Both the position numbers and the translations under genes were made by a program. The notes under the pieces were generated by a model that was not told the DNA's origin, ran no database searches, and saw only the letters and a program-made list of their open reading frames with translations. This document shows positions 2,239 through 64,000 of a DNA stretch of 64,000 nt, piece by piece. The stretch spans positions 2,108,001 through 2,172,000 of the forward strand of contig NC_007802.1 of NCBI RefSeq assembly GCF_000013565.1, given 5' to 3'. Within the stretch, counting starts at the first letter, position 1. Each line of letters begins with the position of its first letter. This DNA comes from Jannaschia sp. CCS1 (GTDB taxonomy: Bacteria; Pseudomonadota; Alphaproteobacteria; Rhodobacterales; Rhodobacteraceae).

Positions 2239-2239
2239 T

Positions 2240-2410: not shown

Positions 2411-3078
2411 CGCTCGATCGCCGCCTGATGGCTGAATGGCTTGGCACCTTTTCGCTTCTGGCCACGGTCATCGGCTCAGGCATCATGGCAGACCGGCTGG
2501 CCGACGGGAACGTGGCCATCGCCCTTTTGGGCAACACGATCCCGACCGGCGCGATCCTTGTTGTGTTGATCACCGTCTTCGGCCCGATCTCCGGCGCGCA
2601 TTTCAACCCGGCCGTAACGCTGTCCTTCGCGCTGCGACGCGAGATCACGCCGGGGGATGCCGGGCTTTATGTCGCCGTGCAGGTCTTTGGCGGCATCGTG
2701 GGTGTTTTGGCGGCCCATGTGATGTTTGAACACCCATTGCTCGACCCCTCGACCACCGCCCGCACGGGGCTAGGCCAATGGGCTGCAGAATTCGTGGCAA
2801 CCTTCGGCCTTGTTGGCACCATCCTCGCTTGCCTGAAGGCGCGACCACAGGCGGTGCCGATGGCGGTCGGGCTCTATATTACGGCGGCCTATTGGTTCAC
2901 ATCGTCGACTTCCTTCGCGAACCCCGCCGTCACCATCGCGCGCGGGTTCTCGGACACATTTGCCGGGATCGCGCCCGCAGATGTCGCGGCGTTTATTGCC
3001 GTGCAACTGGTCGCGGCTGTCCTCGCGACCTGGTTTTTCGGCTGGTTGCTAAATGAAACAGAGGAGGACGTCGCATGA
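2407..3078 (+). CDS. aqpS: Aquaglyceroporin AqpS (arsenite channel)
   Basis: This 223-residue membrane protein of the MIP family has both half-helix motifs: NPA at 67-69 (GAHFNPAV) and NPA at 172-174 (FANPAVTIAR). R179 is the selectivity-filter arginine. In rhizobia and relatives AqpS replaces the ArsB/Acr3 pump: arsenate taken up through phosphate transporters is reduced by ArsC and the arsenite leaves by diffusion through the channel. No arsB or acr3 is seen in this window. I chose the ATG at 2407 because GGAGGA at 2395-2400 is correctly spaced. The frame itself extends upstream to 2356. The stop overlaps the arsC start (ATGA). Confidence 0.9.
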   Translation: MTLDRRLMAEWLGTFSLLATVIGSGIMADRLADGNVAIALLGNTIPTGAILVVLITVFGPISGAHFNPAVTLSFALRREITPGDAGLYVAVQVFGGIVGVLAAHVMFEHPLLDPSTTARTGLGQWAAEFVATFGLVGTILACLKARPQAVPMAVGLYITAAYWFTSSTSFANPAVTIARGFSDTFAGIAPADVAAFIAVQLVAAVLATWFFGWLLNETEEDVA

Positions 3079-3497
3079 GTATCGTCATTCATCACAATCC
3101 TGGCTGCGGGACGTCGCGCAACGCGCTCAGTATCCTCCGCGCATCGGGGGTCGAGCCTGTTGTTGTGGAGTATCTGGAGACGGGCTGGACAAAGTCGCAA
3201 TTGCAGGGCCTGTTCGCCGCCGCAGGGCTGACGGCGCGCGAGGCATTGCGTGTATCGAACTCTCCTGCGGCGGAATTGGGGATGTTGGAGGAGGGCGTGA
3301 CAGAGGATGCGCTGCTCACGGCGATGATCGCCCATCCGGTGTTGGTCAATCGACCCATCATCTGCACCGCGAAGGGCGTGCGGCTCTGCCGTCCGTCCGC
3401 GCGCGTCCTTGACCTGTTGGACGAGGTGCCGACCGGCGCGGTTTACGCGGACGACGGCGAAATGATACTGAATGAGAAGGGGGCGCCGGTTGTCTGA
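3075..3497 (+). CDS. arsC: Arsenate reductase, glutaredoxin type
   Basis: The 140-residue protein carries the ArsC N-terminal loop [11 protein letters not shown] with catalytic Cys11. It also has the downstream [17 protein letters not shown] segment (residues 95-111) that supplies the arginines used for arsenate binding. The glutathione/glutaredoxin-coupled enzyme reduces As(V) to As(III) in the cytoplasm. The start overlaps the aqpS stop by 4 nt, so the two products are probably made in step. That is logical if the arsenite formed must leave through the channel. Confidence 0.92.
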
Positions 3498-4209
3498 TCT
3501 GCCGCAACTTGACGTCGAACATCTGCATCGAATTGATCTGGAACGGCTTTTGCCAAGCGAGCCGAAAGGGCCGGCCCGGCATGCGCCGCGCATCCTGCTG
3601 CTTTATGGGTCGCTGCGGGACCGCTCGTTCAGCCGGTTGATGACGGAGGAGGCGGCCCGGGTGTTGCACGTGTTGGGGGCCGAGACCCGAACCTTCGACC
3701 CTTCTGGCCTGCCGCTGCCCGATGCCGCGAGCGCGGATCATCCCAAGGTGCAGGACCTGCGCGACCTCGTCACCTGGAGCGAGGGCATGGTCTGGTGCTC
3801 GCCCGAGCGGCATGGCGCAATGACCGGCATCATGAAGGCGCAGATTGACTGGATCCCGCTGTCCATCGGCGCGGTCCGACCCACCCAGGGCAAAACGCTT
3901 GCGGTTATGCAGGTCAACGGAGGGTCCCAAAGCTTCAACGCTGTCAATCAGTTACGCATCCTGGGGCGCTGGATGCGCTGCCTGACGATCCCGAACCAAT
4001 CCTCGGTCCCGAAGGCGTTCCAGCAGTTTGGGGATGACGACCGCATGAAGCCGTCCGCGTACTACGACCGGATGGTCGACGTGATGGAGGAGCTGGTGAA
4101 ACTCACGCAGCTGACCCGCGATGTGTCCCCCTACCTCGTCGACCGCTACAGTGAGCGCAAAGAGACCGGAGAAGCCCTGATCGCACGCGTCAACCGGACG
4201 GCGACGTAA
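3490..4209 (+). CDS. arsH: ArsH-family NADPH:FMN oxidoreductase
   Basis: The protein contains [18 protein letters not shown], the FMN phosphate-binding loop of ArsH, then [23 protein letters not shown] and the [10 protein letters not shown] region. ArsH oxidises trivalent organoarsenicals and protects against oxidative stress. The start is uncertain. An ATG at 3472 is in frame, but the TTG at 3490 (product begins MSDLPQLD) has a GAAGGGGG ribosome site 6-8 nt upstream and matches the usual ArsH N-terminus, giving 239 residues. Either start overlaps the arsC end. It is the last gene of the ars cluster. Confidence 0.88.
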
Positions 4210-4735
4210 CGCGGCCCGCAGTGCCTCCGCGGTCGCGCCTTCCACAGGCTGCAATGCGTTGGGTGATTGCGGCCACGGGCTGCAACATGGGTTCGGCTGT
4301 GACGTTGTGTGTTTTGCAAGACCTGGCGGGCCGTTGGATTGATCTGGTTTGGCATGGCCGCGCGCGGACGTCCGGGATCTGGTCTGCCGTTTCGAAGGGC
4401 CAAGGGGATGGACCAGCGGGCCTAATCGGCAACCGATGTTGGCAACATCCTGTTCCCTTGAACCGGGCGAGGGTCATTCGGGTGATCGGACCCTCCACCG
4501 CCATTGCAACGCTAGATGCCATGGTCCGGCTCGTCGCGAGCGATGAGGCGCCTAGGTGCGACATGGATCGTGCCATGCAGGTCCCGCCGTGACGCGCCCA
4601 TGTGGATGTCGTCATGGCGGCGGCGGATCCCATTCGCGCGGGGGCGAGCAGTCAAGCTCAGCAAAGATGTGCCATCTGTTTCCATCCCGATGCCGTTTCC
4701 GAATTCTTGCTATTGCCTGCCCATTCACCGCTGAC
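4210..4735. other. Non-coding stretch between ars cluster and fucose island
   Basis: About 525 bp with several short open frames on both strands (longest about 147 codons), none with a recognisable domain, a good ribosome site or consistent codon use. No terminator with a U-tract and no repeat was found. It may be decayed coding sequence at the junction of two gene blocks. Confidence 0.5.
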
Positions 4736-4753
4736 TAACATGCTAGCATGAAA
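4736..4753. promoter_or_regulatory. GntR-type box 1, upstream of fuconate dehydratase
   Basis: The sequence TAACATGCTAGCATGAAA is a near-palindrome centred on CTAG. It is shared, with few changes, with sites at 7783, 12203 and 20406. It ends 36 bp before the dehydratase start and covers an in-frame ATG at 4748, which argues against that upstream start. Confidence 0.6.
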
Positions 4754-4789
4754 GTCGGTCAGAGGCCGATGTTACAATCAGAGGGTCCC

Positions 4790-6085
4790 ATGTCAGCGCG
4801 CATCACCCATGTCACAACCCATGATGTCCGTTTTCCGACGAGCCGTACTCTGGATGGCTCTGACGCGATGAACGAGGCGCCTGACTACTCTGCTGCTTAT
4901 GTCGTGTTGCACGTCGATCATGGTCCCGACGGCCATGGCATGACCTTCACCATCGGGCGCGGGAATGAGATCTGTTGTTCCGCAATCGAAGCGCTTGGGA
5001 CGCTTCTTGTGGGCCGCGAGGTTGAGGGGCTGTTCGCGGATATGGGCGCGGTCTGGAAACTGGTAACAGGTGACAGTCAGCTGCGCTGGACCGGCCCGGA
5101 AAAGGGCGTGATCCACCTTGCCGGGGCTGCCGTGATGAACGCGGTCTGGGACATGTATGCCAAACATGCGGGCCAACCGGTCTGGCGTTTGTTGGCGACG
5201 ATGTCGCCCGCCGATATGGTGGCGCTGGTGGATTGGCGCTATCTGGCTGACGCGCTGCCCCCTGAAGAGGCGCTGGAGCGCTTGCAGGACAAGGCCCCGG
5301 GACGGGCTGCGCGGATGGCGGAGATGGAGGCCAATGGCTATCCCGCCTATACGACCTCCGCCGGGTGGCTCGGCTATTCAGACGAAAAGATCAAGACGCT
5401 GATGCGCGCGGCGCTGGCGGACGGCTGGACCCATTTCAAGATGAAGGTCGGCGCGAATATCGAGGATGACATCCGCCGCGCGGCGATCATCCGCGAAGAG
5501 ATCGGGCCGGAGCGGTTCTTGATGATGGATGCAAATCAGGTCTGGGGCGTGGAAGAGACCATTTCCAACATGTCCCGGCTGGCCACATTCGACCCGTGGT
5601 GGATCGAAGAGCCGACCAGCCCCGACGATATCCTTGGCCATGCCCGCATCGCACGCGAGGTTGCGCCGATCAAGGTCGCAACCGGCGAGCATTGCCACAA
5701 CGCCGTCATGTTCAAGCAGTTGTTGCAGGCCGATGCGATCAGCTTCTGTCAGGTCGACAGCTGCCGTCTGGCTGGTCCGAATGAGATTCTGGCTGTCATG
5801 CTGATGGCCGATAAATTCGGCGTTCCCGTCTGCCCCCACGCGGGTGGTGTCGGCTTGTGCGAGTTGATCCAGCACATGAGTTTTGTGGACTACATCGCGG
5901 TGTCCGCGAACCTTGATAATCGCGTGCTGGAATATGTGGACCATTTGCATGAGCATTTCGTCGACCCGGTTCGCACCAAGAACGGTCGGTATCTGCCACC
6001 CGCAATGCCCGGCTTCTCGGTGGAGATGAAACCCCACAGCATCGCGCGCCACACGTTCCCCGGCGGCGCGGTGTGGCAAGCCTAG
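4790..6085 (+). CDS. fucD: L-fuconate dehydratase (enolase superfamily)
   Basis: This 431-residue member of the mandelate-racemase group matches the Xanthomonas L-fuconate dehydratase I recall, starting with the HDVRFPTSRTLDGSDAMN segment. Catalytic features are visible: the KxK motif at K217/K219, metal ligand D247 in MMDANQ, E in WIEEPTSPDD, E in ATGEHCHN and the catalytic His in CPHAGGVGLCE. It removes water from L-fuconate to give 2-keto-3-deoxy-L-fuconate. The frame begins at 4748, but that ATG lies inside the operator palindrome. The ATG at 4790 has an AGAGGG site upstream. It is transcribed alone, convergent with the hydrolase gene. Confidence 0.9.
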   Translation: MSARITHVTTHDVRFPTSRTLDGSDAMNEAPDYSAAYVVLHVDHGPDGHGMTFTIGRGNEICCSAIEALGTLLVGREVEGLFADMGAVWKLVTGDSQLRWTGPEKGVIHLAGAAVMNAVWDMYAKHAGQPVWRLLATMSPADMVALVDWRYLADALPPEEALERLQDKAPGRAARMAEMEANGYPAYTTSAGWLGYSDEKIKTLMRAALADGWTHFKMKVGANIEDDIRRAAIIREEIGPERFLMMDANQVWGVEETISNMSRLATFDPWWIEEPTSPDDILGHARIAREVAPIKVATGEHCHNAVMFKQLLQADAISFCQVDSCRLAGPNEILAVMLMADKFGVPVCPHAGGVGLCELIQHMSFVDYIAVSANLDNRVLEYVDHLHEHFVDPVRTKNGRYLPPAMPGFSVEMKPHSIARHTFPGGAVWQA

Positions 6086-6133
6086 GCGGATGATCTCCGA
6101 GGCGCACCGCCATCTCTGCACTCGATATCTGGC

Positions 6134-6982
6134 CTAGGCGTCCCAGGCGATAGTTTGTTGCCGCTGCGTCCCGAGGCCCGCGATGCCCAGTTCCATCACC
6201 TGGCCTTCGCGCAGATAGACCTGCGGCTTCTGACCCATACCCACGCCCGGCGGGGTCCCGGTGGAGATGATGTCGCCGGGCTGAAGGCTCATGAACTGGC
6301 TGATGTAATGCACCAGATGCTGCACGCCGTAGACCATCGTCTGGGTGGAGCCGTCCTGATAGCGGTGCCCGTCCACCTCTAGCCACATGGCCAGATCCTG
6401 GGGATCTTCCACCTCGTCTTTCGTGACCAGCCAGGGGCCCGTCGGGCCGAACGTATCGGCGGATTTTCCTTTGACCCATTGACCGGAGCGTTCAATCTGA
6501 AACGCGCGCTCGGACAAGTCGTTGATGATGCAATAGCCCGCCACATGGTCCATGGCGTGGGCTTCATCGACGTATCGCGCTTCACGGCCGATCACGACGC
6601 CAAGCTCCACCTCCCAATCGGTTTTTGCGGACCCTCGCGGGATGCGAACATCATCGTTGGGGCCGCAAATGGCCGATGTGGCCTTGAAAAACAGCACCGG
6701 CTCGGGTGGCACGTCCATGCCCGATTCCGCGGCGTGATCGGCGTAGTTCAGGCCGACGCAGATCATCTTGCCCACATCGCCCACACATGCGCCGAGACGG
6801 GGCGATCCTTCGATACGCGGAAGGGATGTCGGGTCCAACGCTGCCAGCCGCGCCAACCCCTCCGGTGTCAGGATATCGCCCGCAATGTCCGCAACCTCGC
6901 CAGACAGATCCCGCAGGTCGCCATCTGCGTCCAGCATTCCGGGTTTCTCGGACCCGACAGGGCCATAGCGCAAAAGTTTCAT
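6134..6982 (-). CDS. 2,4-diketo-3-deoxy-L-fuconate hydrolase (FAH superfamily)
   Basis: This 282-residue fumarylacetoacetate-hydrolase-fold protein has the core MICVGLNYADHAAESGM, the metal-binding glutamates in TDWEVELGVVIG and the aspartate in CIINDLSERAFQ. The C-terminus carries the DIISTGTPPGVGMG motif. FAH proteins in this neighbourhood split the 2,4-diketo acid into pyruvate and L-lactate, the last step of non-phosphorylating L-fucose or L-rhamnose breakdown. The assignment rests on the neighbouring dehydratase and SDR. By sequence alone it could be called a generic acylpyruvase. It lies 13 bp downstream of the SDR gene in one operon. Confidence 0.82.
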   Translation of the reverse strand: MKLLRYGPVGSEKPGMLDADGDLRDLSGEVADIAGDILTPEGLARLAALDPTSLPRIEGSPRLGACVGDVGKMICVGLNYADHAAESGMDVPPEPVLFFKATSAICGPNDDVRIPRGSAKTDWEVELGVVIGREARYVDEAHAMDHVAGYCIINDLSERAFQIERSGQWVKGKSADTFGPTGPWLVTKDEVEDPQDLAMWLEVDGHRYQDGSTQTMVYGVQHLVHYISQFMSLQPGDIISTGTPPGVGMGQKPQVYLREGQVMELGIAGLGTQRQQTIAWDA

Positions 6983-6995
6983 TTTGGCTCACTCC

Positions 6996-7730
6996 TCAAA
7001 CGTTCGACCATCCGCCATCGACCACCATGGCCTGACCGGTCACAAAGGCGCTGTCATCGCTGGCCAGATAGACAGCCAGTTTGGCGACTTCCTCTGCGCC
7101 CGCAATCCGACCCATGGGTTGACGGGCGACAAAGGCGGCGCGGGCGGTGCCGTAATCCCCCTGTGCGCGCATCCGACCCTGCAGGCTGGGGCTGTCGACG
7201 GTCCCGGGGCAGATCGCGTTGCAGCGGATGCCCTGTGTCACGAAATCCGCCGCAATGCCTTTGGTCATGCCAATCACCGCGGCCTTGGTCCCGCCATAGA
7301 CGAACCGATTGGGCGCGGCGATGATCGACGACACGACCGAGGCCATGTTGACGATACTGGCGCCGCCATTGTCGATCATCCCTGGCAGGAACGCGCGTGT
7401 CATGCGGAACATCGCCCGGACGTTCAGATTGAAGCTGAAATCAAAGGCGTCGTCGTCACAGTCCAGAATGGTGCCGTGATGCACAAAGCCCGCGCAGTTG
7501 AACAGGATATCCGGCGCGCCGATCTGTGCGGTGAAGTCCGCGATGGCATCGCCATCGGTCACGTCCAACGGCTGCACGCTGCATCCTGCATCCTTCACCG
7601 GGCCAAGCGCGTCGGGGTTGATGTCGGTGGCTATGACCTCCGCCCCCTCAGCGGCAAAAGCGATGGCCGTGGCCTGCCCGATACCGGCCCCCGCGGCGGT
7701 CACAACGGCCCGTTTTCCCTGAAGTCGCAT
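6996..7730 (-). CDS. 2-keto-3-deoxy-L-fuconate dehydrogenase (short-chain dehydrogenase)
   Basis: A 244-residue classical SDR. It has the cofactor loop TAAGAGIG (11-18), D36 for NAD preference, NCAG at 78-81, catalytic S131, Y145 and K149 (YGGTK), and VDGGW at the end. In the Xanthomonas-type fucose pathway this enzyme oxidises the C4 hydroxyl of 2-keto-3-deoxy-L-fuconate. The open frame begins at 7778, but the ATG at 7730 follows a GGGAGAGG ribosome site and starts right at the family N-terminus (MRLQGKRAVVT). It is the first gene of a two-gene minus-strand operon whose promoter region holds box 2. Confidence 0.85.
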   Translation of the reverse strand: MRLQGKRAVVTAAGAGIGQATAIAFAAEGAEVIATDINPDALGPVKDAGCSVQPLDVTDGDAIADFTAQIGAPDILFNCAGFVHHGTILDCDDDAFDFSFNLNVRAMFRMTRAFLPGMIDNGGASIVNMASVVSSIIAAPNRFVYGGTKAAVIGMTKGIAADFVTQGIRCNAICPGTVDSPSLQGRMRAQGDYGTARAAFVARQPMGRIAGAEEVAKLAVYLASDDSAFVTGQAMVVDGGWSNV

Positions 7731-7782
7731 GCGCCTCTCCCTCTGGCCCCGCTTGGGCATTGCCCAAATGTCTGGCAATCGC

Positions 7783-7800
7783 TAACATTCTAGCATGTTA
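7783..7800. promoter_or_regulatory. GntR-type box 2, between SDR and gntR
   Basis: TAACATTCTAGCATGTTA is the most symmetrical copy: 9-bp arms with a single mismatch pair. It sits 53 bp upstream of the SDR gene and covers the first annotated ATG (7795) of the regulator. It is therefore placed to control both genes, including autoregulation. Confidence 0.65.
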
Positions 7801-8529
7801 TCGACGGGCCACCCCAAGGATCAAGGTGAAATCGCGAAGCCTGTTCGGCTATCGTCCCTGTCATCTTACGAAGGGACTTTGTCGGGCCGCGTGTACCACA
7901 GCCTGAAGGACGCGATCCTGTCACTGGCCTATCAGCCAGGCCAGATTTTGCGCAAGGGCGATATCTGCGACCAGCTTGGCATATCCCGCAGCCCGGTATC
8001 GGAGGCGGTCACGCGGCTGGCAACCGAGGGCTTGGTGGATGTGGTGCCCCAGGCCGGGACCTTTGTCGCGCGCTTTTCGATGGATGAGATCCGCGAAGGC
8101 GCGTTCCTGCGAGAGGCGCTGGAACTTGCGGCGATCGAGCGGGTCGCCGGCACGATCACGGATGAGCAAATCATCTTGCTCAAGCGAAATCTGCGGGTTC
8201 AGGAGGCGTTGGTTGAAGACGGTGATTTTCAGGGCTTCTACAAGATGGATGCCGACATGCACGAGATGATCCTGGGGTTCACGGGCTATCGACGGCTGGC
8301 CCAGATGGCCGAAACAAGCTGGCTTCAGGTCAACCGCGCGCGGCAGTTGATCCTGCCCAATCCAGGCCGGGTGGCAGACACGCTGGAGGAGCACCGGTCG
8401 ATCATTGCCGCACTTGCGGCGCGTGACAGCGGTGCTGCCCGTCTCGCAACACAAAATCATCTGCGGCAATTGTTGCGTTATCTGGAGCCTCTGGAGCGCG
8501 ACCACCCTGAAATGTTCGCGCCGCGATGA
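7795..8529 (+). CDS. GntR/FadR-subfamily transcriptional regulator (FCD domain)
   Basis: The 244-residue protein has an N-terminal winged helix: SGRVYHSLKDAILSLAYQPG, then ISRSPVSEAVTRLATEGLV near residues 63-81. An all-helical FCD ligand domain follows (FLREALELAAIERV, DADMHEMILGFTG, EEHRSIIAALAARD). FCD regulators bind small carboxylates or sugar acids in a metal site, so a pathway acid such as fuconate or its keto product is a likely inducer. The start is doubtful: the ATG at 7795 lies inside the palindrome, so translation may begin downstream (an in-frame TTG near residue 29) or from a leaderless message. It is followed with ATGA overlap by the isomerase gene. Confidence 0.85.
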   Translation: MLSTGHPKDQGEIAKPVRLSSLSSYEGTLSGRVYHSLKDAILSLAYQPGQILRKGDICDQLGISRSPVSEAVTRLATEGLVDVVPQAGTFVARFSMDEIREGAFLREALELAAIERVAGTITDEQIILLKRNLRVQEALVEDGDFQGFYKMDADMHEMILGFTGYRRLAQMAETSWLQVNRARQLILPNPGRVADTLEEHRSIIAALAARDSGAARLATQNHLRQLLRYLEPLERDHPEMFAPR

Positions 8530-9497
8530 GCCGTCCAAATCGCCCCCGCTATGCCGCGCGGCTCAACGCGTTCAAACAGCTCACGCCGGGCTCGGATGTG
8601 CGGGACTGGATCGCGGCGGCGGGACAGGTGGGCGGATTGGGGGCGGCGGACCTGAACTTCCCAGACCATTTTGCGGTCTATGACGCGGACCAGATGGGGA
8701 ATTTTCTGGGGGAGGCCGCGCTGACTTTGAACGGGATCGCGATGCGGTACTATACCGACCCCGGTTTCAAACTGGGCGCGTTCACGCATCCTGATGCCGC
8801 TGTCAGACAGGCCGCCTTGGATGTCACCAAACAGGGTATCGACACCTGTGCCCGCATGGGCGGCAAAACGGTCACTTTGTGGATGGGGCAGGACGGGTTC
8901 GATTATGCGTTTCAGATGGATTACGGGCTGGCCTGGGATCGCACGGTCGCGGCCATCGCCGATATCTGCGCCCATGACCCAAACATCGACATCGCGATTG
9001 AATACAAACCGAATGAGCCGCGGGCCTTTGCCCTGATGCCGGATATCGGCACCACGTTGCTGGCCTGCCGCGAGGTGGGCGCGGTCAATCTGGGCGTGAC
9101 GCTCGACTTCGCCCATGTCCTTTACGCCGATGAGATGCCCGCCCATTCCGCCGCGCTGATCGGGCGGCATTCGCGGATGATCGGCCTGCATCTGAACGAC
9201 GGCTACGGCAAGCGCGACGATGGGCTGATGGTGGGCTCGGTCCATGCCATCCAGACCGTCGAATTGCTGGTCGCGATGCTGCGGATGGGCCAGACCGATG
9301 TGATCTATTTCGACACCTTCCCCGACATGGGCGGTCTGAACCCGATTGAGGAGGCGCGGACCAATGTCGCCGTCACGGATCGGCTTATGGCGGTTGCGGA
9401 AAGTCTGATGGAAGATCCAGCGCTGGCGCAGGCGATTGACCGGCAGGATGCGGCGGCATCACACCGGATCGTCGCGCGGGCCTTGTACGGCTCATGA
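8526..9497 (+). CDS. Sugar phosphate isomerase/epimerase-type TIM barrel protein
   Basis: A 323-residue protein with the xylose-isomerase-like TIM-barrel pattern. Metal-site candidates occur in IAIEYKPNEPR, LDFAHVLYADE, GLHLNDGYGKRD and IYFDTFPDMGG. The family covers ketose 3-epimerases and L-rhamnose-isomerase-like enzymes, and the substrate cannot be read from sequence. Overlaps of 4 nt with gntR upstream and with the kinase downstream make a tight three-gene unit. It is not needed for the oxidative fucose route, so it may feed another deoxy-sugar or a fuculose/rhamnulose-type sugar into the cell's pathways. Confidence 0.72.
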   Translation: MSRPNRPRYAARLNAFKQLTPGSDVRDWIAAAGQVGGLGAADLNFPDHFAVYDADQMGNFLGEAALTLNGIAMRYYTDPGFKLGAFTHPDAAVRQAALDVTKQGIDTCARMGGKTVTLWMGQDGFDYAFQMDYGLAWDRTVAAIADICAHDPNIDIAIEYKPNEPRAFALMPDIGTTLLACREVGAVNLGVTLDFAHVLYADEMPAHSAALIGRHSRMIGLHLNDGYGKRDDGLMVGSVHAIQTVELLVAMLRMGQTDVIYFDTFPDMGGLNPIEEARTNVAVTDRLMAVAESLMEDPALAQAIDRQDAAASHRIVARALYGS

Positions 9498-30489: not shown

Positions 30490-30905
30490 CCGATCACCTC
30501 CACGCTGTCCACGCGGCTGACCGGCGATAGCGCGCCTTCACACATGGTGGCGTCCAGCCCATCCCCCGTGCAGGTGTCCACGCCGTTGAACAGGACCCGC
30601 CCCAGATCTTCACACGCCAGACCCGGCATATCGAATTCCCGCACACGGGGGCGCGCGGTGGGCAGCGTGCCCATGTCGAACAGCGTCAGCCGTTCCACCC
30701 CGCCTTGGGTCGTGAACAACACCGTCTCGAACACGATCTGCGCCACGTCCACATCCATGTTGTTCTGGGCCATGAAGGTCAGGCGGCACGCACCCTCCAG
30801 GGGGACGATACGGTTCAATTCGATGATCAGCGGCCTCGGGGCCTCCTGTGCCGCAACCCCCAGAGGGAGGGCTGCGATGAGGGTTGCGGTCAGGAACGCG
30901 CGCAT
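30486..30905 (-). CDS. Periplasmic protein encoded with the heme receptor and Ton motor
   Basis: A 139-residue product with a signal peptide (FLTATLIAALPLGVAA, cleavage near residue 19). The mature domain has cysteines in GACRLTF, LACEDL, DTCTGD and TMCEGA, likely forming two disulfides. I do not recognise a family. The start overlaps the receptor stop by 1 nt (TGATG) and the stop overlaps exbB, so it is translationally coupled between receptor and motor. It may assist receptor-Ton communication. A frame start four codons earlier is possible. Confidence 0.75.
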   Translation of the reverse strand: MRAFLTATLIAALPLGVAAQEAPRPLIIELNRIVPLEGACRLTFMAQNNMDVDVAQIVFETVLFTTQGGVERLTLFDMGTLPTARPRVREFDMPGLACEDLGRVLFNGVDTCTGDGLDATMCEGALSPVSRVDSVEVIG

Positions 30906-54564: not shown

Positions 54565-55341
54565 ATGAATTATGAGACCATCACTGCCGTCACCCGCGAC
54601 GGCGCGGCTGTCATCACCCTCAACCGTCCCGATGTGATGAACGCGCTCAACACGCAGATGCGCGCCGAGATCACCCACGCGGTTGGCGTTGCGGCGCAGG
54701 AGGCGCGGGTTGTGGTGCTGACGGGCACGGGCCGCGCGTTCTGCTCGGGCCAGGATCTGGGGGACCGCGCCAATGCGGGCAACCTGAACCTGGAGCGGAC
54801 GCTGCGGGATGAGTACATCCCCATGCTCAACGCCATCACCGACTGCCCCGTCCCGGTCATTGCCGCCGTCAATGGCACGGCTGCGGGGGCGGGGGCCAAC
54901 CTCGCGCTGGTCTGCGATATCGTCATCGCCGCCGAGAGCGCGTCGTTCATCCAGGCCTTCTCTCGTATCGGGCTGATCCCCGATGCGGGGGGCACGTGGG
55001 CGTTGCCGCGCACCATCGGGCTTCAGCGTGCCATGGGGGCGGCCTTGTTCGCCGAGAAGATCACCGCCGCCCAGGCCGCTGAGTGGGGGATGATCTGGGA
55101 GATGGCCTCTGACGCGGAGTTTGAGGCCACATGGATGGCCCGCGCCACCCATCTTGCCACGGGTCCGACGGAGGCGTTCAAGCGGATCAAGCAGGTGATG
55201 CGAGCAAGCTCTGGCAACTCCCTCGAAGAGCAGCTTTTGCTGGAGGGTCAGTTGCAGGGCCAATGCGGCAAAAGCCGGGATTTCAAAGAGGGTGTCGTGG
55301 CCTTTCTGGAAAAGCGGCCCGCGGTGTTCGAGGGGCGTTAG
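54565..55341 (+). CDS. Enoyl-CoA hydratase/isomerase, PaaG-like
   Basis: A 258-residue crotonase. ITLNRPDVMNALNTQM is the N-terminal strand, GTGRAFCSGQDLGDR lies in the CoA pocket, VIAAVNGTAAGAGANLALVCDIVIAA is the oxyanion hole, and SRIGLIPDAGGTWALPR follows. The pattern matches the PaaG epoxyphenylacetyl-CoA isomerase branch, though no other paa gene is seen. The GGGAGG site precedes the ATG. Confidence 0.82.
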   Translation: MNYETITAVTRDGAAVITLNRPDVMNALNTQMRAEITHAVGVAAQEARVVVLTGTGRAFCSGQDLGDRANAGNLNLERTLRDEYIPMLNAITDCPVPVIAAVNGTAAGAGANLALVCDIVIAAESASFIQAFSRIGLIPDAGGTWALPRTIGLQRAMGAALFAEKITAAQAAEWGMIWEMASDAEFEATWMARATHLATGPTEAFKRIKQVMRASSGNSLEEQLLLEGQLQGQCGKSRDFKEGVVAFLEKRPAVFEGR

Positions 55342-57381: not shown

Positions 57382-58713
57382 TTACCGTTCCGGGATCAGG
57401 CCACGGGGGCTGAAGCGCAGGACCAGCAGGAGGATCATGCCCATCGTCAACAGGCGCATATGGGCGGCTGAATCCAGCAGATGCTCCCGCAGCCAATAGC
57501 CATCATCCATGCCCGCCGTGATGGTTTGCATCAGCAGAAGGCCCAGGGGTTCCACCTGCACCCACAGCCACCAGATCAGGAAGCCGCCCAGGACCGCGCC
57601 CCAATTGTTGCCGGAGCCGCCGACGATCACCATGACCCAGATCAGGAACGTAAACCGCAGGGGTTGGTAGGTGCCGGGCACCAGCTGGCTGTCGAGCGTG
57701 GTCATCATCGCACCAGCAATGCCGCAAATGGCGGAGCCGAGGATGAAAATCTGCAGATGCCGCGCCTTGACGTCCTTGCCCATGGCCGAGGCCGAGACTT
57801 CATTGTCGCGGATCGCGCGCATCATCCGGCCCCAGGGGGAGTTCCAGGCCTTTTCCGACAGCCAGATCAGCAGGCCCACAACGATCAGGAACAGCGCGGC
57901 ATAGAGCAGCTTGACGGTAATCGTGGAGGCGGTAACCGGGTCCGCGCCGATGTTGGTGGCGAAGCTCAGGAAGCCGTCTGAGGCTTGCAGATCCACCTCA
58001 TAGGGGACGGGACGCTCAATGCCGGTGACGTTTTTCACGCCGCGCGCCAGCCAGTCTTCATTCTTGAGGATGGCGATGATGATCTCTGCAATACCGAGGG
58101 TGGCGATGGCCAGATAATCGGACCGCAGGCCAAGGGCCGTCTTGCCGATGATCCAGGCGGCCCCGGCAGCCAGCAGCCCACCAACGGGCCAGGCCAGCAA
58201 AACGGGAAGGCCAAGGCCGCCGAGGAACCCGGTGGAGGCCGGATCGATGGATTCCACCGCATCCACGCCTACGTCAAAGACACGGCGGAAGAGGGTGAAG
58301 CCGATGATCAGGACGATCAGCATGGCGATGCCGCGCAATCGGCCCTTCGGCATGGCGTTCCACAGAAGGATCGCGCCGACGATGGTCAAGGCGCCGAGGA
58401 CCAGGCCGATCAAGGTGCGCAGGCCGCCCGCGCTCCACGCCTCGGGGACCGGTTCGACCGAGACGAGCACCGTGGCGAGGCCGCCGAGCGCCACGAAGCC
58501 CATGATGCCAACGTTGAAGAGGCCCGCATAACCCCATTGCATGTTTACGCCAAGCGCCATGATGCAGCTGATCAGGCCCATGTTGAAGATCGTCAGCGCC
58601 GTGTTCCAGGATTGCACGAAGCCGGTGCCGAGGAAGAGGATCGCCACCAGGGCGAACAGCATGATATTCTTGGTGTTCACGCTGGAGGGGGCGGAGGCTG
58701 TTGCGTCACTCAT
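57382..58713 (-). CDS. livM: Branched-chain amino-acid ABC transporter permease (LivM)
   Basis: A 443-residue membrane protein with LivM-type helices, including NMQWGYAGLFNVGIMGFVALGG, GLRSDYLAIATLGIAEI (EAA-like coupling region) and RMMRAIRDNEVSASAMGKDV. The central part is longer than usual, with additional hydrophobic stretches. It partners LivH for import of leucine, isoleucine, valine or an amide/urea. Its start overlaps the livH stop (ATGA). Confidence 0.9.
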   Translation of the reverse strand: MSDATASAPSSVNTKNIMLFALVAILFLGTGFVQSWNTALTIFNMGLISCIMALGVNMQWGYAGLFNVGIMGFVALGGLATVLVSVEPVPEAWSAGGLRTLIGLVLGALTIVGAILLWNAMPKGRLRGIAMLIVLIIGFTLFRRVFDVGVDAVESIDPASTGFLGGLGLPVLLAWPVGGLLAAGAAWIIGKTALGLRSDYLAIATLGIAEIIIAILKNEDWLARGVKNVTGIERPVPYEVDLQASDGFLSFATNIGADPVTASTITVKLLYAALFLIVVGLLIWLSEKAWNSPWGRMMRAIRDNEVSASAMGKDVKARHLQIFILGSAICGIAGAMMTTLDSQLVPGTYQPLRFTFLIWVMVIVGGSGNNWGAVLGGFLIWWLWVQVEPLGLLLMQTITAGMDDGYWLREHLLDSAAHMRLLTMGMILLLVLRFSPRGLIPER

Positions 58714-59720
58714 ACCGATTTCCCCTTCATGATACCCGTGGGCTTGAACAGCAGCACGATCAGCAGGATCCCGAAGGAGACCGCGAATTTATAGTCGGTG
58801 GAGAGGAGTTGCAGAAGGCCGTCGGGTTGCCAATCCTCTGGCCCCAGGTAGCCCACGACCTTGCGGAACGCATAGGTGACGCCGACCTCGGAGAACGCAA
58901 TGAGGAAGCCGCCGAGGATCGCGCCAAGTGGGTTGCCAAGCCCGCCCACGATGGCGGAGGCAAAGATCGGCAGGAGCAGTTGGAAATAGGTGAATGGCTT
59001 GAAGGACTTGTCGAGGCCGTAGAGGACACCCGCGGTGGTGGCCAGCGCCGCGACGATGATCCAGGTGACAAGCACGACACGGTCGGGGTTGATGCCCGAC
59101 AGAAGCGCCAGGTCTTCGTTATCGGAAAAGGCCCGCATGCTCTTGCCCGTGCGCGTGCGGTTGAGGAACCAGAAGAGCAGCACCACGGCGATGATCGCCA
59201 CGACGATGGTGATGCCTTGGGTGGTGCGGAAGGCGAGGCCCTCGTCCAGACCCGTCATCTCCCGGAAATCGCGGGCGCGGATGATGAACCGCTCCCCATC
59301 GGAGAAGCGCTGATCATCGACGCCGATGAAGAAGCGCACAATGCCGTTCATGATGAACATCACACCCAGCGACGCGATGACGAAGATCACCGGTTTGGCC
59401 TTCTGCGTGCGGTAGAAGCGGTAGACGACGCGGTCCGTGCCGATCATCAGCGCGGCGGTGACCGCGATGCCCAAGGGCAGGGCGATCAAAGCGGTGGGCA
59501 GGGGGCCGAAGCTGACACCCGCCGCCTGCAAGCCCCAGGTCCCGAAGATCGTCACCATGGTGCCGAACGCCATCGTGTCACCATGGGCGAAGTTCGAGAA
59601 CCGCAGGATCCCATAGATCAAAGTCACGCCAAGCGCGCCAAGCGCCAGCTGTGCGCCATAAGCGGTGGCGGGCACGATGACGAAATTCGTCAGTGCCACA
59701 AGTGCGTTGAGAAAATCCAC
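58710..59720 (-). CDS. livH: Branched-chain amino-acid ABC transporter permease (LivH)
   Basis: A 336-residue permease with LivH-type motifs: LALGALGVTLIYGILRFSNFAHGDTMAFGTMVT and SMRAFSDNEDLALLSGINPDRVVLVTW (coupling). It is separated from the last small secreted-protein gene by 94 bp, in line with being in the same operon. GGGAGACG precedes the start. Confidence 0.9.
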   Translation of the reverse strand: MDFLNALVALTNFVIVPATAYGAQLALGALGVTLIYGILRFSNFAHGDTMAFGTMVTIFGTWGLQAAGVSFGPLPTALIALPLGIAVTAALMIGTDRVVYRFYRTQKAKPVIFVIASLGVMFIMNGIVRFFIGVDDQRFSDGERFIIRARDFREMTGLDEGLAFRTTQGITIVVAIIAVVLLFWFLNRTRTGKSMRAFSDNEDLALLSGINPDRVVLVTWIIVAALATTAGVLYGLDKSFKPFTYFQLLLPIFASAIVGGLGNPLGAILGGFLIAFSEVGVTYAFRKVVGYLGPEDWQPDGLLQLLSTDYKFAVSFGILLIVLLFKPTGIMKGKSV

Positions 59721-59814: not shown

Positions 59815-60234
59815 CTAAATGAGTGTGCAGGTGCCGAAAACGGTGATCGTCCGGGCCGGTCCGTCCGAGCCGTGGATCGACATGATCGCCTGGCCGTCCG
59901 CGGTGATGGTCAAAAGCTCTCCGATGGCGTGGGACCCGGCGGTGGCATAGGCGGCGGGCAGACTGCCCTGGTCCCGCAACCGCGTGACCGGACGGTCGCC
60001 TGCGGGCGAGGTCAAAAACAGATCGCCCGCGTGATCGGCGGCGATGACCTCGTAAAGATCGTCGATGGCAAAGCAATCGTAATTCTCGCATTGCACCGTC
60101 ATCCGGCAGGCCCATGGCTCTGCGATGACTGCCACGGGGGCCGCCAATGGGGCCGCTGCGAGGAGCAGAGCGAGGAGGGGCGCGCGCCGAAGGCGCCTTG
60201 GTCGCCGCGTCCCCGTGCTCAGCGCCCGGTTCAT
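59815..60234 (-). CDS. Secreted four-cysteine protein, copy 4 of a tandem family
   Basis: A 139-residue protein with an Arg-rich N-terminus and signal peptide (LLALLLAAAPLAAPVAVIA). The mature part starts WACRMTVQCENYDCFAIDD. Cysteines C43, C49 and C54 make C-x5-C-x4-C, and C136 lies 3 residues from the end. The core is acidic/beta-like and includes YEVIAADHAGDLFL. It overlaps the preceding paralog (ATGA). No known family recognised; it belongs with the three neighbours below. Possible roles are ligand-accessory or disulfide-stabilised envelope proteins. Confidence 0.72.
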   Translation of the reverse strand: MNRALSTGTRRPRRLRRAPLLALLLAAAPLAAPVAVIAEPWACRMTVQCENYDCFAIDDLYEVIAADHAGDLFLTSPAGDRPVTRLRDQGSLPAAYATAGSHAIGELLTITADGQAIMSIHGSDGPARTITVFGTCTLI

Positions 60235-60635
60235 TCCGGGATCTCGCAAGAGCCAATCCCCGTGACCACCCGCGTGCCGGCCTGCGGTTGATGCCCGGTG
60301 ACCGCCACGCGGCCCACGCTGTCAAAGGTGATGATTTGCGACGATTGCGTGCGCTCGTTGCGGAACAGAAGCGTGCGCACGCGCACCTGCTCCACCGCGT
60401 CCGCAGGGGGGCGATAATCGGCGATCAGCTCATAGGCCGAGGGCAGGTCGGCGTTCCAGACCACGCTCCACCCATCATCGCCCTCCGCAATCGTGATCGT
60501 CTGATCCCAATCCCGACACGCGCCCACATCTGGGCACAGGACGTCCAGCACACAGGTCCAGTTGACCGGAGCCTCCTGCGCCTGAACGCCGGTGGGCAAG
60601 GCGCAGATCAGGGATATCATGGCAAGCCGCATCAT
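60231..60635 (-). CDS. Secreted four-cysteine protein, copy 3 of a tandem family
   Basis: A 134-residue protein with a short signal peptide (MISLICALPTGVQAQ). Mature start APVNWTCVLDVLCPDVGACRDW has C28, C34 and C40 as C-x5-C-x5-C, and the final C130 is 4 residues from the end (GSCEIPE). The body has DDGWSVVWNADLPSAYE and IITFDSVGRVAVTGHQ. A GGAGAT site precedes the ATG. Unknown family; same cysteine grid as its neighbours. Confidence 0.72.
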   Translation of the reverse strand: MMRLAMISLICALPTGVQAQEAPVNWTCVLDVLCPDVGACRDWDQTITIAEGDDGWSVVWNADLPSAYELIADYRPPADAVEQVRVRTLLFRNERTQSSQIITFDSVGRVAVTGHQPQAGTRVVTGIGSCEIPE

Positions 60636-60717
60636 GGGCGATCTCCTTCACTAAAAGCGGGCCCATTGCGCTCTATCGCACCGGGTCCTGATCTCGACAC
60701 GCGTCCGGCCCGCCCCC

Positions 60718-61083
60718 TCATGCGCCCGGCTCGCAGATGCCGAAGTAGGAGATTGAGCGCACCCCGCCCCCGGACGTCAGGTCCTGTTGCGTCATCACCG
60801 CGTCGCCCGTGCCGGTGACGGTCAGCAGGATCGTGCTGTCCGGGGAGGTCTGGAAGATCGCGCCATAGGCGGGCGGTGTCAGATGGGTCAATCGCGTGCC
60901 AAAGACGGGCCGGTCCTCCGCAAAGAACGTGAAAGCGCCCGAGACGACGTCAAAGCGGAACGGCACGCCGGGATGGGTCTGGCAATCGGTCAGCGGGCTG
61001 CAGATTGTCGTGAATGTGCATTCCAGGCCAACCGCCAGGGCCGGGCCGGGGACCAGCGCGAGGAGGCAGACCAGCGCCCTCAC
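60718..61083 (-). CDS. Secreted four-cysteine protein, copy 2 of a tandem family
   Basis: A 121-residue protein starting at a GTG that overlaps the preceding stop (GTGA). Signal peptide MRALVCLLALVPGPALA, then LECTFTTICSPLTDCQTH: C22, C28 and C34 as C-x5-C-x5-C. Final C117 is 4 residues from the end (GICEPGA). The middle, FDVVSGAFTFFAEDRPVFG and LTVTGTGDAVMTQ, looks like beta strands. A frame start 4 codons earlier is possible. Unknown family. Confidence 0.7.
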   Translation of the reverse strand: MRALVCLLALVPGPALAVGLECTFTTICSPLTDCQTHPGVPFRFDVVSGAFTFFAEDRPVFGTRLTHLTPPAYGAIFQTSPDSTILLTVTGTGDAVMTQQDLTSGGGVRSISYFGICEPGA

Positions 61084-61502
61084 TGCGCCAGGCACCTTAT
61101 GACGAAATACTGGCCGCGCAGGACAGGCTCACGCGTCTCAGGGCGCGGGGTCTGGACCCTGAGCGCGAAACGGCGGGCAGCGTCCTCGGGCGGCAGATCG
61201 GTCAGAAATGACCGGCGGCTTGTGTCGAGGCGCGGCAGGGGCAAGGCGTCGTCCAGCGTCGGGTAATGGTCGATGGACGACAGGTCGGCCTCGTTCTGGC
61301 CCATCCAGGTGCCGTCCGGCTCTATCACCACCAACAGATCCCCCAGGGCGGGCGTCGTGCCGCAGGTGCCGTCTGGCGTGCAGACCTCCGCCATCTGGCA
61401 CAGGCCGCGATAGCTGACCTGCGGGCTGTCATCCAGCGTTGCGGTCGCGGGGAAGGCCGCGAGAGAGGCCGCCAGCACCGTGCCAGGACCCCGCATCCGC
61501 AT
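61080..61502 (-). CDS. Secreted four-cysteine protein, copy 1 of a tandem family
   Basis: A 140-residue protein whose ATG overlaps the livF stop (TGATG). Signal-like N-terminus GTVLAASLAAFPATA, then YRGLCQMAEVCTPDGTCGTT: C35, C41 and C47 as C-x5-C-x5-C. The final C136 is 4 residues from the end (IRCLAQ). The body has LLVVIEPDGTWMGQNEADL. It starts the run of four paralogs placed between livF and livH. Unknown family. Confidence 0.72.
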   Translation of the reverse strand: MRMRGPGTVLAASLAAFPATATLDDSPQVSYRGLCQMAEVCTPDGTCGTTPALGDLLVVIEPDGTWMGQNEADLSSIDHYPTLDDALPLPRLDTSRRSFLTDLPPEDAARRFALRVQTPRPETREPVLRGQYFVIRCLAQ

Positions 61503-62332
61503 CAGCCCCCCAGAAAGCTCTTGCGGACCTCCGGGTCAGCGAGAAGCTCCTTGCCGGTGCCCGTGAACGCATTGCGTCCCTGCACCAGAACATAGCCTTT
61601 ATCCGCAATCTCAAGGGCTTGGCGGGCGTTTTGTTCCACCATCAGGATCGGGATGCCGGTGCGGGACACTTCGATGATCCGGTCAAACAACTCGTCCATC
61701 ACGATGGGGGAGACGCCCGCGGTCGGCTCATCCAGCATGAGGACCTTCGGTTTGGTCATCAGCGCACGTCCCACGGCCACCTGCTGACGCTGCCCGCCGG
61801 AAAGCTCCCCCGCCGCCTGGGCGCGCTTGTCCCGCAGGATCGGGAACAGATCGAACACCTGCTCCAGCGTGTCGCGAAAGTCGTCCTTGCGGATGAAGGC
61901 CCCCATCTCAAGATTTTCCTCCACGGTCATGGAGGTGAAGATGTTGGAGGTTTGCGGCACAAACCCCATGCCCGCGCCCACCCGCGCCTGGGGCGAGAGC
62001 GCGCTGATATCCTGCCCGTCAAGAAGCACATGCCCCTCCCGCAGGTTCAGCATCCCGAAGACGGCCTTCATCGCGGTCGATTTGCCCGCGCCGTTGGGAC
62101 CCACGATCACCGCAATCTCTCCGGGGTTCACGGCAATGGTGCAATCGTGAAGGATGTCGGGGCCATTGCCATAGCCGCCGGTCATCGCGTCGCCGATCAG
62201 GAAGGGATGGGCGCCATCGGTGGGAATGGCCTTGCCGCCCGGCGCAATCGGATCGCCCATGGAGGGGGGACGGGGCTTCGTGATCGAGCGGTCCTTGTTG
62301 CCCCGGTCGTTGTGATAGGCGTTGTCGCTCAT
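61502..62332 (-). CDS. livF: Branched-chain amino-acid ABC transporter ATPase (LivF)
   Basis: A 276-residue ATPase with Walker A GPNGAGKS (78-85), LSGGQRQQVAVGRAL, VLMLDEPTAGVSP and the LivF-type VEQNARQALEIAD. Walker A lies about 40 residues further in than normal, so an N-terminal extension of about 40 residues exists (Asn/Asp/Pro-rich). The ATGA overlap with livG supports the long start; M25 is an alternative. It is followed by the four secreted small proteins. Confidence 0.88.
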   Translation of the reverse strand: MSDNAYHNDRGNKDRSITKPRPPSMGDPIAPGGKAIPTDGAHPFLIGDAMTGGYGNGPDILHDCTIAVNPGEIAVIVGPNGAGKSTAMKAVFGMLNLREGHVLLDGQDISALSPQARVGAGMGFVPQTSNIFTSMTVEENLEMGAFIRKDDFRDTLEQVFDLFPILRDKRAQAAGELSGGQRQQVAVGRALMTKPKVLMLDEPTAGVSPIVMDELFDRIIEVSRTGIPILMVEQNARQALEIADKGYVLVQGRNAFTGTGKELLADPEVRKSFLGG

Positions 62333-63120
62333 GCCGGGGCCTCTTCCAACTGATCCTTGTTCTTGAGGCCGGTGCCCAGATAGGCCTCGATCACCGCGTC
62401 GTTGGCCTTGATCTGGTCGAGCGTTCCTTCCGCCAGCACGTGGCCCTCGGCCATACAGATCACGGGGTCGCAGAGGCGGCCGATGAAATCCATGTCATGC
62501 TCAATCACGCAGAACGTGTAGCCGCGTTCCTTGTTGAGGCGGATGATCGCGTCACCGATGGTGTTGAGGAGCGTGCGGTTCACGCCTGCGCCGACCTCGT
62601 CCAGAAACACGATCTTGGCGTCGACCATCATCGTGCGGCCCAGTTCCAGCAGCTTCTTTTGCCCGCCCGAGATCTGGCCCGCAGGTTGATCGGCCAGATG
62701 TTCGACGGTCAGAAACTCCAGCACTTCATCGGCTTTGGCCTTTAGCGCGCGTTCCTCGTCGGCGATGCGTTTGCGGCCAAACCACGTGTTCCACAGAGTC
62801 TCACCGGATTGCCCCTCGGGCACCATCATCAGATTTTCCCGACAGGTCATGGAGGAGAATTCATGGGCGATCTGGAAGGTGCGCAGCAGGCCCTTGCCGA
62901 ACAGCTGATGGGGCGGCAGGCCGGTGATATCCTCGCCGTCCATCACAACCTTGCCGGATGTGGGCGGCAGGACGCCCGCGATCACGTTGAAGAGCGTCGT
63001 CTTGCCCGCGCCATTGGGGCCGATCAGCCCGGTGATCGAGCCCGTTTCGATCCGAAGGCTCGCGCCATCTACGGCATGGAAGCCACCGAAGTGTTTGTGG
63101 AGGTCGTGAACTTCAATCAT
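62329..63120 (-). CDS. livG: Branched-chain amino-acid ABC transporter ATPase (LivG)
   Basis: A 263-residue ATPase with Walker A GPNGAGKT (34-41), LRTFQIAHEFSSMTCRENL (LivG pattern), SGGQKKLLELGRTMM, FLDEVGAGVN and VIEHDMDFIGRLCD. It forms the second ATP-binding subunit of the Liv importer. A hairpin/terminator lies upstream after the binding-protein gene. Confidence 0.9.
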   Translation of the reverse strand: MIEVHDLHKHFGGFHAVDGASLRIETGSITGLIGPNGAGKTTLFNVIAGVLPPTSGKVVMDGEDITGLPPHQLFGKGLLRTFQIAHEFSSMTCRENLMMVPEGQSGETLWNTWFGRKRIADEERALKAKADEVLEFLTVEHLADQPAGQISGGQKKLLELGRTMMVDAKIVFLDEVGAGVNRTLLNTIGDAIIRLNKERGYTFCVIEHDMDFIGRLCDPVICMAEGHVLAEGTLDQIKANDAVIEAYLGTGLKNKDQLEEAPA

Positions 63121-63219: not shown

Positions 63220-64000
63220 TCAGCGGTAACCGGCGACCGTCAGCTCCCCGCCGGAGATCTCGATCTCACGATAATTGCCGGCAGATTCGCCACCCCCGAT
63301 CAGCTCCACGGCGGAGGCGCCGACATAATCGACCTCTTCCCCGTTGGCGATCATTTCCAGCGCCATGCCAAGCTGGCCGGGCAGGATCTCGGTGCCGGGC
63401 GCGTTGGCGACGTTCATGATCTCACCCATATAGTCGGCGGCGTTGCGGCTTTCCGCAGCGGCCATGGCGAGCATGAGCAGGGCGGCGGCGTCATAGGATT
63501 CCGCGGAGAACGGCGAGGTGCCGTCAAAGCCCGCTTCCTCGGCCATGGCCTGATAGAGGCCCGCGCCTTCGCTGTCGGTGCCGGGGTTCTGGCCGAACGA
63601 CCCGTCGATGTCGGAGCCGAAATTGTCGACCAGCGCCTGAGAGACCATGCCGTCGGGGAACACGAAGGTGTCAAACGCGCCGGTATCTAATGCAGCCTGG
63701 ATCACGCCGGAGCCGCCCTGGTCCACGTAGCCCGCAACGACAAGCGCGTCACCACCGGCGGAGGCAAGTGCGCCGACTTCGGCGGAGTAATCCGCGCGGC
63801 CATCCTCATGGGCCGCCGACAGCGTGACGGTGCCGCCCGCTTCTTCAAACGCCGCAGAGAAGGCATCGGCCAGGCCCTGGCCATAGTCGTTGTTGGTGTA
63901 GGTCAGCGCGACGGTGTCGATGCCGCGTTCCATGATGATTTCGGCCATCACGACGCCCTGGCGCGCATCGGACGGCGCGGTGCGGAAGAACAACCCGTTA
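63220..64000 (-). CDS. livK: Branched-chain amino-acid/amide ABC transporter binding protein (N-terminus outside window)
   Basis: The 260 visible C-terminal residues read open to the window edge: NGLFFRTAPSDARQGVVMAE at the edge, YTNNDYGQGLADAFSAAFEEAGG, SVELIGGG-like ending and TVAGYR. This is the periplasmic-binding-protein type-1 leucine family, about 390 residues in full, so about 130 residues with the signal peptide lie outside. The track-type start TTG at 63993 is not real. It is the first gene of the liv operon in this window. Confidence 0.88.
   Translation of the reverse strand, partial: NGLFFRTAPSDARQGVVMAEIIMERGIDTVALTYTNNDYGQGLADAFSAAFEEAGGTVTLSAAHEDGRADYSAEVGALASAGGDALVVAGYVDQGGSGVIQAALDTGAFDTFVFPDGMVSQALVDNFGSDIDGSFGQNPGTDSEGAGLYQAMAEEAGFDGTSPFSAESYDAAALLMLAMAAAESRNAADYMGEIMNVANAPGTEILPGQLGMALEMIANGEEVDYVGASAVELIGGGESAGNYREIEISGGELTVAGYR

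Follow-up and report, generated by a model that had tools for sequence, protein, structure and literature searches.

Putative exported proteins with a common cysteine grid occupy a hypervariable livF–livH slot in Rhodobacteraceae

Results

The DNA analyzed here is a stretch of 64,000 nucleotides from Jannaschia sp. CCS1 (NC_007802.1, positions 2,108,001 to 2,172,000; hereafter, the window), and our subject is the interval between livF and livH in its Liv importer operon (hereafter, the slot), together with the small proteins encoded there. A preliminary description had placed in this interval four consecutive minus-strand open reading frames (ORFs), here called c1 to c4 from livF to livH, each with a signal peptide and the cysteine pattern C-x5-C-x4/5-C followed by a single distant cysteine, and we confirmed this arrangement. 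The common grid consists of C-x5-C-x4/5-C, a stretch of 81–89 residues (previously given as 81–88), and a last cysteine 3–4 residues from the C-terminal end; the cysteine positions reported earlier also hold, except that the last one of c1 is C137 and not C136. As described before, the livF stop codon overlaps the c1 start codon (TGATG), the c1 stop overlaps the c2 start (GTGA), the c3 stop overlaps the c4 start (ATGA), and c2 and c3 are separated by an 82-bp gap; another 94 bp lie between the end of c4 and the start of livH. Signal peptides were called by eye and with a hydrophobicity filter, and those of c2 and c3 contain an additional cysteine (C6 and C11, respectively). By eye, no lipoprotein signature was found in c1 to c4, where the first grid cysteine lies several residues past an AxA-type site; in one relative, L113, a cysteine stands at such a place (L numbers denote loci and G numbers genomes of relatives).

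When the grid was defined strictly (C-x5-C-x4/5-C-x78-92-C-x0-5-end), 4 of the 203 window ORFs of at least 100 amino acids (aa) matched it, and these are exactly c1 to c4. Across the livH loci of 80 named relatives, the strict grid was found in 29 of 99 ORFs in the livF–livH interval versus 2 of 2,687 outside it, and both of the latter resemble the family, one coming from an interval truncated at the edge of its contig, the other from a livG–livF gap. These frequencies, in the window and in the relatives, indicate that the grid of c1 to c4 is not a product of chance. The livF gene is visible in 79 of the 80 loci, and its distance to livH is less than 100 bp in 22, 169 bp in 1, and at least 329 bp in 56. 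All but two of the 56 long gaps contain, on either strand, one or more secreted-type ORFs with a cysteine at the end, whereas the same filter passed 49 of 838 plus-strand ORFs of 85–200 aa elsewhere in the loci. Two profiles, A5 (built from 30 divergent slot proteins of livH loci, and thus seeded from the slot) and A6, recognized a slot protein in 40 of the 80 loci, the others being too divergent or without one. Occupancy ranges from zero to seven proteins in many Rhodobacteraceae.

The content of the slot can differ completely beside importers that are nearly the same. The clearest case is the pair L136 and L138, both named Ruegeria arenilitoris; since the collection holds one genome per Genome Taxonomy Database (GTDB) species, GTDB treats them as separate species. 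Their importer proteins are 98.4–99.5% identical (amino acid-binding protein [SBP] 99.5%, LivG 99.2%, LivM 98.4%, LivF 98.9%, and LivH 99.4%), and their first-slot proteins have no mutual BLAST match at E ≤ 1e-4; one of the two protein families turns up again in a more remote relative. At the DNA level (250-bp blocks, positions 1501–9000), identity drops to 48 and 63% in the two blocks that span the first slot gene; the remaining blocks are at 82–96%, those covering the second slot gene at 82–84%, and the second-slot proteins are 78–79% identical. A similar pattern was seen in L133 and L158, both named T. omphalii, where LivH (95.2%) and SBP (93.8%) are well conserved and the slot proteins are 24% identical. 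Occupancy can change as well: L139 has a near-empty slot of 85 bp, and its LivH is 98.8% identical to that of L138, in which the slot is occupied. Among the 31 pairs of loci with LivH at least 92% identical and recognized slot proteins on both sides, 18 have no slot-protein pair of at least 40% identity (our own tally, which covers plus-strand ORFs only and in which most pairs are Ruegeria).

We then examined the genus of G055, in which livH occurs in 54 of 54 genomes and 30 loci were read; it is taken as Ruegeria because the slots of L184 to L186 are the same as those of L136, L138, and L149. After removal of 8 spurious or antisense ORFs, 42 slot proteins remain, which BLAST sorts into 11 families, and 7 of the 30 loci contain an inverted slot gene. 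The pair closest in livH DNA (95.4%) among the 22 complete slots carries different first-slot families. Conversely, first-slot family 1 is common to L185 and L213 (75.6% protein identity; livH DNA, 84.7%) and is absent from L184, which is closer to L185 (livH DNA, 92.7%). L155 (4644-5084, minus strand) and L156 (4515-5054, minus strand) each contain a two-cysteine secreted gene inverted in the slot, and L118 has two copies of similar two-cysteine genes on the plus strand. In guanine-plus-cytosine (GC) content, the 12 lowest of 56 slots lie 5.6–13.1 points below their flanks, with a mean shift of −1.0 (standard deviation, 5.3) over all of them; the slot of the window itself is richer in GC than its flanks. 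Collectively, these results show that the livF–livH slot is hypervariable in Rhodobacteraceae, with strong turnover in some groups (Ruegeria and Tateyamaria) and not in others.

The preliminary description had suggested a survey of genomic neighborhoods, which we carried out. The genome sets behind the different searches overlap, so that the counts are not independent samples, and whole-genome searches score a limited number of candidates per genome, which makes absences soft. Because no relative was found when peptide patterns of c3 alone were scanned, a second scan used livH. In other genera, the livH loci encode proteins that have diverged in sequence but share this design and this place. 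Matches to the c3 profile extend to 5 of the 295 genera in the family, the window's own included. Searched against whole genomes, the A5 profile gave 53 matches at E ≤ 0.001 in 44 of 149 genera, 136 of which have the Liv importer, and 49 of the 53 lie on the livH strand, directly upstream of livH at a distance of 6–1125 bp. In genomes that contributed no seed, 28 of 30 matches are upstream of livH (our own count). At the level of the order, 75 of the 292 genomes sampled matched, all in the family of the window, although the unmatched genomes shown also belong to this family and other families of the order were hardly tested. A class-level sample of 385 genomes, in which the few other genomes of the same family listed gave no match, returned the window's own genome and one weak match (E 0.004), and c4 found no match in plasmid records. 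A second match of c3 in its own genome (window 30783-30890) was dropped, since it lies in a protein that lacks the grid and covers no more of c3 than residues 6–41, the signal peptide and the N-terminal region.

Four of the 53 matches lie away from livH. In G096 (L165, 5650-6431), a c3–c4 pair follows a TRAP DctM-like gene and converges with an enoyl-CoA-hydratase-like gene that resembles window 54565-55341, and the livF–livH gap of this genome is empty (L022). In G135 (L163, 6030-6811), a pair stands beside a GlxA-like regulator gene and a penicillin-acylase-like gene, and in G116 (L164, 5554-6054) a relative lies amid integrase- and resolvase-like genes (all names and the resemblance by eye). 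Three further profile matches, those of G434 and G490 in the order-level sample and that of G128 with the c3 profile, each contain one in-frame TGA and are possibly decaying slot genes. A second, rarer slot occurs between livG and livF in L114, L126, L128, L142, L145, L152, and L160, with ORFs of approximately 160–250 aa, several of which have an export signal; the gap of L126 (4260-4628) encodes a protein with the four-cysteine grid. In L157 (7080-8664), a 1.8-kb insertion with sulfotransferase-like and MarR-like genes (by eye) parts livH from livM.

Within the genus of the window, c3 is present in 13 of 13 genomes, its own included, and c1, c2, c3, and c4 lie ahead of livH in all 13 loci, in 11 of which livF is in view; c1 was recognized by grid and position, and in L013 by position, grid, and tree. 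The number of grid proteins is four in six genomes, five in four, six in two, and seven in one, whereby the counts of L012 (five) and L013 (seven) are lower bounds because livF is out of view. An extra grid protein without an obvious signal peptide is encoded just after livF in L005 (56-517) and L011 (211-600; both in livF-to-livH orientation).

The four proteins had been regarded as old paralogs kept together. Profile–profile comparison links c2 with c4 (probability 98.5, E 2.4e-15), c3 with c4 (96.4, E 1.3e-9), and, more weakly, c2 with c3 (67.6, E 5e-5). For c1, which forms a separate BLAST cluster and whose profile matches only 2 of 149 genera (its own included), the probabilities against the other three are 15.8–48.2, with alignments confined to the N-terminal cysteine region; its kinship is thus suggested by the grid, the slot, and an eight-stranded predicted fold, and not by significant sequence similarity. 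In a tree of mature domains (the shortened range Nioella_3 was left unused), the group of c3 takes in proteins from three other genera (support 0.992) and that of c2 from two (0.976). Roseicyclus and Boseongicola are among the partners of c4 (0.934), an extra copy named c2b clusters with Nioella plus two others (0.997), and c1 joins HKCCE3408 (0.962). As the ortholog groups of c1, c2, c2b, c3, and c4 include other genera, the slot proteins are, judged by their sequences, old paralogs that predate the genus. The ratio of nonsynonymous to synonymous substitution rates (dN/dS) within the genus is 0.03–0.25 for slot genes (10 of 24 comparisons computable) and 0.006–0.018 for livH (4 of 6 computable), indicating that the slot ORFs are real genes, which evolve under purifying selection and at a much higher rate than the permease.

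Structure prediction, also proposed earlier, was run for c4 and for the mature part of c1, and both models have eight strands. The c4 model is a barrel with a predicted local distance difference test (pLDDT) score of 94.4 and a predicted template modeling (pTM) score of 0.86. The best c1 model reaches a pLDDT of 82.6, but the five models span 69.9–82.6 and their alignment (A7) also contains c2, c3, c4, and other slot proteins, which makes the c1 barrel less secure. The slot proteins are thus predicted to be eight-stranded barrels, most of them with four cysteines: the 78 mature slot ORFs contain four cysteines in 56 cases, two in 14, six in 3, and an odd number in 5, and these counts include artefacts among the two-cysteine ORFs (L086_5636 and L090_5011 by trimming and L114_5533 as a spurious frame) and trimming artefacts among the odd ones (L128, L136, and L158). 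The mostly even counts and the model suggest internal cysteine pairs, so the inter-protein disulfides that had been considered earlier are not needed. The two-cysteine proteins of Ruegeria have a spacing that is also compatible with a pair between the third and fourth grid cysteines (C3–C4), which leaves the pairing deduced from co-loss uncertain. In a structure search with the c4 model, no single fold family stands out and MliC/PliC are absent among the 50 matches listed; the 50 entries listed for the c1 model include weak matches to MliC (3f6z), PliC (3oe3), and PhiA (7dsg), the last of which we take to be a lysozyme inhibitor. Calycins (lipocalin, avidin, and FABP barrels) are possible structural relatives.

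No curated family reaches its cut-off: at E ≤ 1 in Pfam and NCBIfam, c1 to c4 gave no MliC/PliC family and a sole row, c4 to a reovirus domain (E 0.069), which fails the cut-off. For 35 members, no MliC/PliC family was found in Pfam (E ≤ 0.1) or NCBIfam (E ≤ 0.01), no family at all in PHROGs (E ≤ 0.01), and nothing above any cut-off in Pfam, NCBIfam, PHROGs, or PADLOC. A sequence search of the Protein Data Bank (PDB) with the slot profile found no match. A literature search aimed at the slot proteins returned no paper on such proteins, as far as titles and the beginnings of abstracts tell, and the passages of PMC9007349 describe none.

The importer genes around the slot are listed in Table 1. 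The nearest solved chains of the SBP are the Leu/Ile/Val-binding proteins 4n0q (4.9e-24) and 1z15 (6.9e-20). Alternative starts exist for c2 (GTG at 61095) and c4 (TTG at 60249), and a promoter and terminator scan was uninformative (1 and 2 sites versus 0.9 and 3.7 in shuffled sequences).

Table 1. Genes of the slot and of the surrounding importer operon in the window
Gene	Product	Position	Strand	Remarks
c1	secreted-type four-Cys protein	61080-61502	-	140 aa; C35/41/47/137; first slot gene
c2	secreted-type four-Cys protein	60718-61083	-	121 aa from GTG; C22/28/34/117
c3	secreted-type four-Cys protein	60231-60635	-	134 aa; C28/34/40/130
c4	secreted-type four-Cys protein	59815-60234	-	139 aa from ATG; C43/49/54/136; adjoins livH
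SBP gene	amino acid-binding protein	63220-64000	-	Pfam Peripla_BP_6 1.5e-15; cut by window edge, whole in L168
livG	ATPase	62329-63120	-	Pfam ABC_tran 1.6e-29 and BCA_ABC_TP_C 2.3e-9
livF	ATPase	61502-62332	-	Pfam ABC_tran 2.4e-33; upstream border of slot
livH	permease	58710-59720	-	Pfam BPD_transp_2 5.4e-39; downstream border of slot
livM	permease	57382-58713	-	Pfam BPD_transp_2 1.7e-30

Discussion

The eight-stranded barrel is a common fold; what is new here is an array that is locked to one locus and hypervariable in content. Its fixed address in the importer operon indicates that the proteins matter at the importer or are made together with it. The preliminary description had envisaged a multi-subunit receptor that feeds the binding protein, and this idea found no support. 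The slot genes do lie in the operon on the strand of the importer in 49 of 53 matches, as a core subunit would, yet they are inverted in some Ruegeria, and with a livF–livH gap of less than 100 bp in 22 of 79 loci, they are not present wherever the importer is. Moreover, the exchange of first-slot proteins without detectable similarity beside the near-identical SBP, LivG, LivM, LivF, and LivH of L136 and L138 argues against obligate subunits and suggests a variable outside partner. Because dissimilar slot proteins occur beside near-identical importers, an invariant part of the importer surface is probably not their target.

We propose, at a probability of roughly 0.4, that the slot barrels are periplasmic guards of the Liv importer against such a variable partner; both this function and its target are what we infer from the pattern above. 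After export, the barrels would work in the periplasm, next to the Liv binding protein and permease, where each would bind a variable outside molecule that exploits or damages the gate of the importer. The attacker may be a hostile enzyme of the cell wall, or a part of a phage or of a contact-delivered toxin that acts at the permease. A C1–C4 pair would fasten strand 1 to strand 8, a C2–C3 pair would close the first hairpin, and the stapled barrel would leave its remaining surface free to diversify. Changing attackers would then select for births, losses, and swaps in the array and for its dispensability while the importer stays constant. According to PMC9291907, GltJK, an ABC-permease pair, serves as the entry receptor for a delivered toxin, and an importer gate of this kind can thus need guarding. 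In a more specific and more tentative form of the proposal, the slot would be a recombining locus of hypervariable periplasmic immunity, whose lineage-specific disulfide-stapled barrels guard a constant importer against phages or delivered toxins.

Several observations weigh against this proposal. We know of no attacker of LivHM, and PADLOC-DB returned no family for 35 members at E ≤ 0.1. With dN/dS well below 1 in the genus, there is no sign of pervasive positive selection. Turnover is also far from universal: in 13 of the 31 close pairs, one or more slot proteins still match at an identity of 40% or above, L124 and L154 retain both of theirs (96 and 84%), and the first-slot proteins of L191 and L205 are 98% identical. 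Other points fit accessory modulators equally well or better, that is, barrels that tune uptake or substrate range by binding to the SBP or to LivHM on its periplasmic side, or as ligand carriers. The overlapping start and stop codons would be expected of a transporter accessory just as much, and the array is stable in the window's genus. Two pairs of unequal slot occupancy differ in their SBP too, which is only 84.7% identical in L138 and L139 and 62.4% in L123 and L141, so that slot content may be linked to the SBP. We consider accessory modulation possible but doubtful, and the same holds for its corollary that the paralogs supply different specificities.

The barrels may instead be general periplasmic inhibitors or orphan immunity proteins, either like MliC, PliC, and Neisseria ACP or directed against cell-wall effectors, with the importer as a mere carrier and its operon as a recombination hotspot. 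The predicted strand number and the proposed first-to-last-strand disulfide, both as in ACP, would agree with this, as would the weak c1-model matches to 3f6z, 3oe3, and 7dsg, and the swap of a cassette between conserved flanks, the lower GC content of some slots, and the inverted genes are what a hotspot may leave behind. Yet a hotspot should hold mixed cargo, almost no unlinked copies were found (4 of 53 away from livH), and none of 35 members matches an MliC/PliC family of Pfam at E ≤ 0.1, all of which makes this explanation unlikely. Least probable, in our estimate, is fast drift of dispensable secreted proteins, in which old paralogs are lost lineage by lineage without diversifying selection. 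Old paralogs do exist, the dN/dS values are free of positive selection, and patchiness is nothing special, given that a separate small secreted protein of the window occurs in 5 of 13 genus genomes (its own included; 73–99% identity). Nevertheless, purifying selection acts on the slot genes, the slot is occupied in 54 of 79 loci, and L136 and L138 would require the reciprocal loss of several ancestral genes while the flanks and the second slot gene were kept.

Whichever function applies, the libraries searched contain no family for these proteins, although many genera within a single bacterial family encode them. Nested between ATPase and permease genes, the slot would be an unexpected place for uptake tuning or for immunity, and the natural pairs in which importers are 98–99% identical and slots differ offer a direct test of the question.

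Comparison with known systems

The slot proteins are predicted to be small exported barrels of eight strands, which may liken them to MliC/PliC and Neisseria ACP. According to PMC5507604, ACP is an eight-stranded barrel that inhibits lysozyme and has a disulfide between its first and last strands, which resembles the C1–C4 pair proposed here. Unlike these inhibitors, the slot proteins have no Pfam match, most carry a second cysteine pair, and they are encoded in tandem arrays inside a transporter operon; the structural matches to the inhibitors are weak and appear only with the c1 model among the 50 entries listed. Another parallel comes from a nutrient importer, BT2261-2264 SusCD of Bacteroides, where the structures deposited together with it or next to it include small beta-barrel proteins (5fq7 chain E and 3h3i); 3h3i is among the listed matches of the c4 and c1 models and 5fq7_E among those of c1 only. 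Orphan immunity and acquired interbacterial defense clusters combine a fixed locus, hypervariable small genes, exchange between relatives, and tandem arrays, and the slot has the same features, but it differs from them in its single protein design, its place within an importer operon, and the lack of a known effector. AztD is a periplasmic accessory of an ABC importer, an extra exported protein encoded with it. The slot likewise adds exported proteins, by prediction, to an ABC importer, but in contrast to accessories of the AztD type, they can be swapped while the importer stays constant.
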